This document shows, in pieces, positions 17,996-20,233 of a stretch of 38,233 nucleotides of DNA. A program made the position numbers and the translations under genes. Within the stretch, counting starts at the first letter, position 1, and each line of letters begins with the position of its first letter. Where the stretch lies: assembly GCA_913020555.1 (NCBI GenBank), contig CAJWAC010000017.1, positions 1 to 38,233 of the forward strand, given 5' to 3'. The DNA comes from an uncultured Polaribacter sp. (GTDB lineage Bacteria > Bacteroidota > Bacteroidia > Flavobacteriales > Flavobacteriaceae). The notes beneath the pieces are model-generated. The model saw nothing but the letters and a program-made list of their open reading frames with translations, ran no database searches and was not told the DNA's origin.

Positions 17996-18403
17996 ATGAA
18001 AAAAATAACCTTACTTTTTGTTAGTTTAATCCTTTTTTACTCTTGTTTAGATAGTGACAATGATGCTCCAAATTTAGCCTATCAAATACTACCAATTGAT
18101 GAGTATACAACTCCAGATAGTTTTACTTTTGGACAAAGAGACACCATAAAATTAAAGTACTCTTTACCAAACGGTTGTTATTATTTTGATGATATTTACT
18201 ACGAATATCAAGATACTGCAAGAGTAGTGGCAATACGATCTATAAGAGATTTAGATGCAGTATGCACTGAAGCTGTAGTACAATACGATTATGATTTAAT
18301 TGTAACCGCAACACAAGCAGAAGACTATCTTTTTAAATTTTACAAAGGAGAAGATGCAAATGGAGATAGTATTTTTGAAGAAGTTGTAGTTCCTGTAAAT
18401 TAG
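17996..18403 (+). CDS. Small lipoprotein preceding the ECF sigma gene
   Basis: A 135-residue lipoprotein with lipobox FYSC (Cys17) followed by LDSDND, an acidic stretch like Bacteroidota surface-export signals. The mature part includes PNGCYYFDDIYYEYQDT and a cysteine near residue 97 (AVCTEAV), probably pairing with Cys 60. The C-terminal strand FKFYKGEDANGDSIFEEVVVPV resembles an immunoglobulin-like end strand. No function is known. Its stop codon overlaps the first possible codons of the sigma factor gene, so the two are coupled; it may be a surface partner of the signalling unit. Confidence 0.72.
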   Translation: MKKITLLFVSLILFYSCLDSDNDAPNLAYQILPIDEYTTPDSFTFGQRDTIKLKYSLPNGCYYFDDIYYEYQDTARVVAIRSIRDLDAVCTEAVVQYDYDLIVTATQAEDYLFKFYKGEDANGDSIFEEVVVPVN

Positions 18404-18944
18404 ATTTATCAAACTAGAAGCACTTATAGAAAAATGTTGTGAGCAAAATTTAGAAGCTCAGTCTAAAGTTTATCACCTTTTTGCGGATAAACTTTTTGCT
18501 GTTTCTTTAAAATACTCTAAAAACTATCAAGATGCAGAAGACAATTTACAAGATAGTTTTTTAACTATTTTTGATAAAATTCAACAATACAAACACAAAG
18601 GATCTTTTGAAGGATGGTTAAAAAGAATTACGATTCATACAGCAATTCAGAAATACAGAAAAAAAGCTCCTTTAGAAATTGTAAAAGAAGTTTCTGATGA
18701 TATAGAAGATGAAGTTATAGATTTTAAAAACACAACTTTTCATCTAGACGTTTTATTAAACTGTATTCAGCAATTGCCAGATAGATATCGATTAATTTTT
18801 AATTTGTATGCGTTAGATAATTATTCACATAAGGAAATTGCAAAACTGTTGAATATCTCTGAAGGAACCTCAAAATCAAACTTGTCTAGAGCAAGAAAGA
18901 TTTTGAAAAATAAATTAGAAATGTTGAAAAATGAACAAAATTAA
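18399..18944 (+). CDS. ECF RNA polymerase sigma factor with no NTG start codon
   Basis: An open frame of 181 codons encodes a clear ECF sigma factor that has no ATG, GTG or TTG near its start. After a stop at 18396-18398 it reads ATT AGA TTT ATC AAA CTA GAA, then the region 2 core (YSKNYQDAEDNLQDSFLTIF; FEGWLKRITIHTAIQKYR), a short linker, and region 4 (LPDRYRLIFNLYALDNY; HKEIAKLLNISEGTSKSNLS). Homologous N-termini would begin just before KLEALIEKC, so ATT at 18399 or ATC at 18408 is the likely start. The ATT overlaps the preceding stop TAG, and the frame's own stop overlaps the next ATG by one base. A single-base sequence error is the main alternative. The product would direct RNA polymerase to a surface-stress or signalling regulon, held back by its neighbour. 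Confidence 0.85.
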   Translation: MRFIKLEALIEKCCEQNLEAQSKVYHLFADKLFAVSLKYSKNYQDAEDNLQDSFLTIFDKIQQYKHKGSFEGWLKRITIHTAIQKYRKKAPLEIVKEVSDDIEDEVIDFKNTTFHLDVLLNCIQQLPDRYRLIFNLYALDNYSHKEIAKLLNISEGTSKSNLSRARKILKNKLEMLKNEQN

Positions 18945-20233
18945 TGGGCGATAAAAAAATAGATAATTTGTTTCAGGAACAACTCAAAAAATTGGAAGTT
19001 TCTCCAAATAAAAGAGTATGGAACAATATTGAAGCCAAACTTAAAAAGAAAAAGCGAAAGGTTTTTCCTTTTTGGTGGTTTTCAGGTGCTGTTGCCTCAA
19101 TTATACTCTTAACTTTTATTTTTAACGAATATTCCTCAGTTGAAAATCCTAAATTTAATATAAATCCTGATAAAACAATAACAATTATTCCTGAACGCGA
19201 AACAATCATCAACAATAAAATTGATAGTTTAGATTTGAAAAATAATCGTAAAAATGAAATTTTACTTTCTAAAGAAGATAATGTGATAAAGGTTGATAAA
19301 AATAAAATTCAAAATTCACGTTCACAAAAAGAAATCTATAAACCAAGAAAAAGTAAAACGTCCTTAATTTTGAATTATAATTCTGTTGCTACCAATTTTA
19401 GAATAGTACCACAAGAATCTCCTTTAAAGATTTCAAAAAGAACCACTATTAAATACAATGATAAAAAATTAGATATTGCAAGTGTAATTAAAACAGAAGA
19501 AAATGCAAATGATAATAAATCTGAAAATAATTGGTCTATTGCGCCATCATTTGCTGTTCTAAAATCAAATTCTCTATCGGATACCTCTCCAATTAATGCA
19601 GGTTTGTCAGAATCTACTTCTGGCGAAAACAGTTATTCATATGGTGTGCAAGTTGCATATCAAATAAATAAGAAATGGTCTATTCAATCTGGAATTCATC
19701 TTCAAGAAAACAGTTATGCTAACAACCAAGTTTCTGTTAACAGTTCTTCAGAAAGAAACCCTTTTGCCACAGCCTTTTCCAATGGTGATGTATTTTCTTT
19801 TAACAAAAATAATGACATCACTGAAAGTGCCCAACTAATAGGTAATTCTGTTTTAAATGCTGGAAATTCTAATACTGGAAATATTTCCCAAAACTATGGT
19901 TATGTTGAAATACCTATAGAAGTGAAATATAACTTTTCGAATAGTAACAAACTACAAACTCAATTTGTAACAGGATTTAGTACTTTGTTTTTAAATAAAA
20001 ACGAAGTTATTTTAGATACGCAAAATTTTTCTAGAACTTTGGAAGCCGCAAACCTAAATAACATCAATTTTAGTGGAAACATCGGCTTTGATTTCAATTA
20101 TAATTTATCCAAAAAAATAGCTTTAAACTTAAATCCAATGTTTAAAGTACAGTTCAATACATTTAGTAATAATTCCAATGGATTTGCACCGTTTAATATT
20201 GGAATTTACACAGGTATTAAATATCAATTTTAA
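18944..20233 (+). CDS. Anti-sigma-like / outer-membrane beta-barrel fusion protein
   Basis: A 429-residue protein with three parts. Residues 1-40 form a charged cytoplasmic head (DNLFQEQLKKLEVSPNKRVWNNI) like the short anti-sigma region seen beside Bacteroidota ECF sigma genes. One hydrophobic helix spans about 43-61. After a Lys/Asn-rich periplasmic linker to about 190, the C-terminal 235 residues show alternating strands (YGVQVAYQINKKWSIQSGI; YVEIPIEVKYNF) and end in an aromatic (YQF), as in PorT-like outer-membrane barrels. It probably holds the sigma factor at the inner membrane and senses the outer membrane, although both parts cannot be embedded in one membrane. It starts one base before the end of the sigma gene. 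Confidence 0.8.
   Translation: MGDKKIDNLFQEQLKKLEVSPNKRVWNNIEAKLKKKKRKVFPFWWFSGAVASIILLTFIFNEYSSVENPKFNINPDKTITIIPERETIINNKIDSLDLKNNRKNEILLSKEDNVIKVDKNKIQNSRSQKEIYKPRKSKTSLILNYNSVATNFRIVPQESPLKISKRTTIKYNDKKLDIASVIKTEENANDNKSENNWSIAPSFAVLKSNSLSDTSPINAGLSESTSGENSYSYGVQVAYQINKKWSIQSGIHLQENSYANNQVSVNSSSERNPFATAFSNGDVFSFNKNNDITESAQLIGNSVLNAGNSNTGNISQNYGYVEIPIEVKYNFSNSNKLQTQFVTGFSTLFLNKNEVILDTQNFSRTLEAANLNNINFSGNIGFDFNYNLSKKIALNLNPMFKVQFNTFSNNSNGFAPFNIGIYTGIKYQF

Follow-up and report, generated by a model that had tools for sequence, protein, structure and literature searches.

An AUC, AUU or AUA codon as the probable start of an ECF sigma factor gene in Polaribacter and Tenacibaculum

The sigma factor gene and its neighbors

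The window is a stretch of 38,233 nucleotides from an uncultured Polaribacter species. The region of interest contains an ECF sigma factor gene, preceded by a gene for a lipoprotein-like product and followed by a gene for a candidate anti-sigma factor. The features are as follows:

17996–18403, + strand: upstream gene (open reading frame), lipoprotein-like product of 135 amino acids, ends 4 nt ahead of ATC 18408
18399–18401, + strand: ATT, start codon named in the original prediction, judged not to be a start, overlaps the end of the lipoprotein gene
18408–18410, + strand: ATC (AUC in the mRNA), the start codon proposed here, aligned with the NTG starts of other Flavobacteriaceae and at the onset of residue conservation
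18408–18944, + strand: gene for the ECF sigma factor, 178 codons counted from ATC and then TAA
18423–18428, + strand: codons 6 and 7, CTT ATA in the window gene (CTC ATA in most relatives)
18944–20233, + strand: gene for the candidate anti-sigma factor, Dma-like in architecture, sharing 1 nt of its ATG with the sigma stop codon

The frame 18399–18944 is open and encodes a complete ECF sigma factor, according to both the reading of the open reading frame and family searches. ECF sigma factors have regions 2 and 4 of Sigma70 but lack region 3. This product contains both of the expected regions, with the Pfam families PF04542 and PF08281 above their cut-offs, and none of its five Pfam matches is a region 3 family. 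The superfamily TIGR02937 is also found (E 1.8e-25, 89.5 bits against 42.9); among the 25 NCBIfam matches listed, of 89, every other family is below its cut-off. A profile built from 28 homologs matches SigW (5wuq) across positions 1–169. The predicted model is all-helical (helices 3–11, 15–35 and six more, mean pLDDT 83).

An in-frame stop codon, TAA at 18396–18398, is followed by ATT AGA TTT ATC. The last T of ATT 18399–18401 is also the first T of the lipoprotein stop codon, TAG 18401–18403. Counted from ATC 18408, codon 123 of 178 is the first in-frame NTG, and the frame has no ATG, GTG or TTG ahead of it. The original prediction had described this open frame with intact regions 2 and 4, the stop codon and the overlap between ATT and TAG, all of which we confirm. 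Its statement that there is no NTG before the middle of the protein is, if anything, too mild.

The N-terminus of the upstream product (...LILFYSC) resembles that of a lipoprotein in our reading; this 135 amino acid product has no family match in Pfam or NCBIfam. On the other side, the sigma stop codon TAA 18942–18944 and the ATG of the next gene overlap by one nucleotide (TAATG). The AlphaFold model of this next product (mean pLDDT 67) shows two short helices, a helix at 43–60, a low-confidence stretch at 61–192 and a beta-barrel at 197–428, mostly above 85 pLDDT except for 261–310. We read the 43–60 helix as a probable membrane helix, and the 61–192 stretch is taken as disordered. The Pfam family OMP_b-brl_2 matches the product and, at E ≤ 0.01, 17 of its 22 homologs, and the top Foldseek match of the barrel is an OmpA barrel.

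On this reading, the predicted model contains an N-terminal domain, a transmembrane helix, a disordered tether and a beta-barrel, arranged as described for Dma2 (PMC13088901). The Das/Dma system of Bacteroides thetaiotaomicron consists of an ECF21 sigma factor and a dual membrane-spanning anti-sigma factor (PMC13088901). The window likewise has an ECF sigma factor gene beside a gene for a predicted tethered barrel protein, although the window pair is flavobacterial and is likened to Das/Dma by domain architecture.

A candidate ATG start is found for the next gene in all 189 loci with a readable N-terminal motif (of 216), while a looser search which prefers ATG finds it in 212 of 216. The first methionine is invariant in the 22 aligned homologs, whose rows were cut at the ATG.

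Homologs and alignment

Homologs of the sigma factor come from contigs of named genomes (63 loci), 59 relatives, 166 genomes of the genus and 397 genomes of the family. A match at E ≤ 1e-45 is found in 88 of the 166 genus genomes, and a match at E ≤ 1e-40 in 317 of the 397 family genomes. We have read 110 of these 317 genomes, all of them best matches, so that weaker members are under-represented; they correspond to 30 loci, which include the window's own genome and one genome already known, and 80 regions. At E ≤ 1e-30 the sigma factor was matched in 281 loci, from which removal of repeated sequences and of scores below 150 bits left 221 orthologs.

The 221 orthologs were aligned with MAFFT, including up to 15 upstream codons where the frame was open (209 of 221 had some). 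Codon 1 is the column of ATC 18408; codons 1 to 7 are free of gaps in 220 of the 221 rows. The genus set of 88 genomes contains one locus per genome, unselected with respect to codon 1. A quick LG+G4 tree was obtained from 215 rows, L087 being omitted for missing columns.

Codon 1 in related genomes

The codon 1 column contains TTG (98), ATC (59), ATT (24), GTG (23), ATG (8), ATA (4) and other codons (5). An NTG codon is therefore present in 129 of the 221 orthologs and AUC, AUU or AUA (AUH) in 87, counts which are not independent, since the orthologs are related. All five orthologs with other codons have an NTG nearby: a TTG immediately precedes codon 1 in L034, L039 and L045, L202 has TTG two codons later, and L200 has ATG/TTG 17–16 codons earlier.

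The genus set has ATC in 58 genomes, ATT in 24, ATA in 4, CTT in 1 and GAA in 1. AUH is present in 86 of 88 genomes, the exceptions being L200 and L202, with their NTG elsewhere. Named records with AUH correspond to Polaribacter, Tenacibaculum and MAGs. All eight ATG orthologs lie outside the genus set. The original prediction named an ATG at this position in closely related genomes as evidence that would count against it; none of the 88 genomes has it, and the observation stands. A sequencing error at the start is very unlikely, since AUH is shared by 86 genomes and ATG by none.

No upstream in-frame NTG is found in 85 of the 87 AUH orthologs; the other two, L086 and L214, carry an in-frame ATG or TTG 6–12 codons upstream. 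The first in-frame NTG of the AUH genes is codon 15 in 23 of 87, with a median at codon 32, and no NTG near the 5' end is conserved among the 87. Two of the same genomes contain paralogs of the sigma gene (L218 and L219, 53% identical), which have TTG in the codon 1 column.

The tree shows a single change between NTG and AUH (SH-aLRT 95) and at least 14 changes of the third base of codon 1 among C, T and A, with G in no row of the AUH side; 99 of its 212 inner branches have a support below 80 and several long-branch joins are flagged. ATC is found at codon 1 in 59 of the 87 AUH genes, as against 7.6% ATC among their own isoleucine codons from codon 13 on. Part of this excess may be due to descent or local context, since it is concentrated in genes which abut an upstream gene (47 of 51, against 12 of 36 elsewhere).

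A separate case is L086, whose genome is placed in another family. Its sigma factor is of the ATC type, 65% identical, with the in-frame ATG located 12 codons upstream; its sequence would be compatible with a possible transfer.

Position of the start codon

Conservation of the protein begins at codon 1. In the 88 genus genomes, residue entropy is 2.9 bits at codon -2 and 3.46 bits at codon -1, where 15 kinds of residue are found, and drops to 0.18 bits at codon 1. It is still low, 0.81 bits, at codon 3, which codes for leucine in 74 genomes and isoleucine in 11, with at least four leucine codons in use. High entropy before codon 1 and low entropy from there on indicate that the translated part begins at about this codon. 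Codon 1 lies where sister groups have NTG, which speaks for a start rather than a mere isoleucine codon. From these sequence comparisons, translation almost certainly begins at ATC 18408.

The original prediction is supported as to the kind of start: a rare codon like that of infC, which would probably keep the sigma factor scarce and lead gene finders to truncate or miss the gene. Its place and codon, on this evidence, have to be changed: AUC at 18408 instead of AUU at 18399.

Alternative explanations

The alternative that survives best, although we consider it unlikely, is that the sigma factor has no separate start: It would be made by re-initiation or frameshifting after the abutting upstream gene, and AUH would be incidental. 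The upstream stop codon is only 4 nt away in the window, a gene ends 1–5 nt upstream in 51 of the 87 AUH loci, and a weak start could benefit from re-initiation coupled to termination. On the other hand, 36 of the 87 genes have AUH without any gene of at least 50 codons ending 1–5 nt upstream; the upstream gap is 11–50 nt in 22 of the 87 and 51–400 nt in 7. The conservation of AUH also suggests that the codon is significant. Coupling to the upstream lipoprotein gene, as originally suggested, is thus possible in the window but is not a general rule. Frameshifting from the upstream gene as a general rule is rejected, since AUH is retained in genes which lack such a neighbor.

It is very improbable that translation starts at AUU 18399, within the last codons of the lipoprotein gene. 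AUU is a known rare start, and ATT is almost constant at codon -3 in the 51 AUH genes which abut an upstream gene (ATT 48, ACT 2, CTA 1). Nevertheless, the codon is part of the conserved end of the upstream gene, which explains its constancy, and 3 of the 51 genes lack ATT. Among the 36 genes without this overlap, 30 have the codon in an open frame, and only 4 of the 30 have ATT. In addition, the NTG starts of relatives align with 18408, codons -2 and -1 are highly variable, and only one codon separates the in-frame stop from the AUU of codon 1 in 3 of the 87 AUH genes. The ATT named in the original prediction is most likely wrong, and we have rejected it as the start for its dependence on the overlap and the onset of conservation at codon 1.

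There is equally little chance of a downstream start, at AUA codon 7 or a later NTG, which would give a shorter sigma factor. Codons 6 and 7 are strongly conserved at the nucleotide level, the infC frame of this genome has GTC ATA GCA, and TTG is the codon 15 of the 23 AUH genes mentioned above. Against this, codons 3 and 6 keep leucine or isoleucine through synonymous changes and hence look translated, codon 1 is NTG or AUH in nearly all orthologs (129 and 87 of 221), a downstream start would lose the predicted helix 3–11, and NTG codons near the 5' end are not conserved. We have rejected codon 7 or a later codon as the sole start for the lack of a conserved NTG and the translated appearance of codons 3 and 6. 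As judged from the sequence, some minor initiation at codon 7, in addition to the main start, is possible.

Finally, a decaying and untranslated gene which has simply lost its start is hardly credible: An internal stop is found in one ortholog (L087) and the gene has no counterpart at E ≤ 1e-45 in 78 of the 166 genomes of the genus, including 50 among the 128 of high quality, but AUH is present in 86 of 88 genus genomes, the other 87 orthologs of the genus set are 53–79% identical to the sigma factor of the window with one internal stop among the 88, the candidate anti-sigma frame follows in the loci where it is readable, and both genomes without AUH have an NTG nearby. The absence of a match in those 78 genomes does indicate that the sigma gene is dispensable. 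L087 (genome G028, the same as L187) keeps ATC at codon 1 and has TAA at codon 8; it is possibly a dead copy.

infC and other rare start codons

The genome of the window also lacks an NTG at the start of infC, whose frame reads GTC ATA GCA ATT AGA (G000:C30). A match to infC is found in 94 genomes, from which we have read 60 loci (L300, L302–L360 and the window's own genome). All 60 contain ATA-GCN, followed by a codon for isoleucine, leucine or phenylalanine, near the 5' end of the frame, mostly preceded by GTC or GCC. Between the opening of the frame and roughly 25 codons beyond the aligned start, 55 of the 60 have no NTG; the loci which have one are L333, L341, L342, L344 and L347. These sequences suggest that infC of Flavobacteriaceae starts at AUA. 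Initiation at AUH is therefore to be expected in these bacteria in any case, and gene finders which require NTG are expected to truncate or miss both the sigma gene and infC in these genomes.

To our knowledge, non-canonical starts outside infC are few. The infC gene starts with AUU in E. coli and with AUC in Streptomyces, and is presented as a rare well-characterised example of a non-canonical start in PMC5472188. An AUH start would be common to infC and the sigma gene of the window, with the difference that infC regulates itself, whereas IF3 would act on the sigma gene without being its product.

The closest parallel is sigR of Streptomyces, as described in PMC5472188. This gene has a GTC start, repressed by IF3, and the codon is conserved: GTC is found in 32 and GTT in 2 of 34 Streptomyces. 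When GTC is changed to a canonical start, or when IF3 is impaired, SigR exceeds the anti-sigma factor RsrA; the weak start prevents this excess (PMC5472188). As proposed for the window, the non-canonical start is conserved in a clade and belongs to an ECF sigma gene with an anti-sigma gene, in the window a candidate, next to it. There are several differences. Streptomyces belongs to another phylum, and its codons are GTC and GTT, as against AUC, AUU and AUA, with a third-base mismatch, in our case. The RsrA protein is a redox-sensing zinc protein, while the partner in the window is a Dma-like anti-sigma candidate. The sigR gene has an extensive ribosome binding site, while Bacteroidetes, the group to which the window belongs, do without Shine–Dalgarno sequences (PMC6847099). 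In these bacteria, more of the control may therefore fall to the start codon and the sequence around it. IF3 favors start codons with a strong pair at the third base and rejects those with a weak one (PMC10158994). Among the matches listed for the open-access literature, there is no report of an AUH start on a sigma factor gene in Flavobacteriia.

Proposed role of the start codon

We consider it quite probable that this is a working ECF sigma gene whose conserved AUH start, AUC 18408 in the window, keeps the sigma factor below its presumed anti-sigma factor under the restraint of IF3. The initiator tRNA would read AUC 18408 as formylmethionine. From this weak start, less sigma factor would be made than presumed anti-sigma factor, whose overlapping gene starts with ATG. 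The sigma factor would bind to the envelope-spanning anti-sigma candidate and would remain silent until released by it. By analogy with infC and with sigR of Streptomyces, IF3 would restrain initiation at the AUC codon. A low level of sigma factor, as the sequence of a rare start implies, is likely.

A probable AUH start on a sigma factor gene is present in the genomes of 86 species of one genus, with NTG at the same codon in sister groups. The retention of AUC, AUU or AUA in relatives suggests that a low output of sigma factor is useful to these bacteria. If our proposal is correct, this would be, together with sigR of Streptomyces, a second independent case of a sigma factor held below its anti-sigma factor by the start codon, and two independent cases would suggest a general design.

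The start region in NTG and AUH genes

A possible stem, NTGAGT(T)...AACTCA, covers part of the start codon in the NTG group of 129 rows (L133, L225 and L253 are examples). Its pairs are kept in 89% of the cells, as against 30–55% when the arms are slid by 1–4 bases, repeated sequences being counted once. The G of the start codon faces C in 107 of the 129 rows and U in 6. Folding of single sequences from -12 to +40 gives -6.1 kcal/mol in 120 NTG rows, against -3.7 for single-letter shuffles; the corresponding values of the AUH group are -2.5 and -2.6 kcal/mol. Codon 2 RGN is associated with codon 6 CTC (98, 5, 9 and 17 of 129; Fisher p 8e-11, a value which ignores relatedness). On the other hand, RNAalifold gives no consensus structure of the start region in either group, which counts against a hairpin, and the stem is absent from some NTG genera, such as the Aquimarina records L023–L026. 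These sequences may form a hairpin over the start codon in many of the NTG relatives.

The AUH group has lost the left arm of the stem and retains CTC ATA. Codon 6 is CTC in 66 of the 82 leucine codons of this group, compared with a usage of 2.3%. No other codon of the gene shows synonymous conservation as strong as this. All 87 rows have ATA as codon 7. A search for the complement of CTC ATA within 300 nt in the AUH group gives no position common to more than 14 of the 87 genes, even with 5-mers, and TATGAG, its complement, is absent from the 16S locus of the window's genome.

A tentative extension of our proposal, more doubtful than the proposal itself, is that Flavobacteriaceae have two interchangeable brakes on this gene: most genera would bury a UUG or GUG start in a hairpin, and Polaribacter and Tenacibaculum would use an AUH start free of structure, which would wire the envelope response to IF3 alongside infC with its AUA. 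A single change of the third base would both break the pair between the start codon G and C and create the AUH start. We have slightly lowered our estimate for this extension because the RNAalifold result and the NTG genera without a stem oppose a general hairpin.

A second family of ECF sigma genes, paralogous to this one and found in L065, L098 and L099, has TTG at the apparent start (TTGAAAATTAT...), so that genes of this kind may often have weak starts in these genomes.
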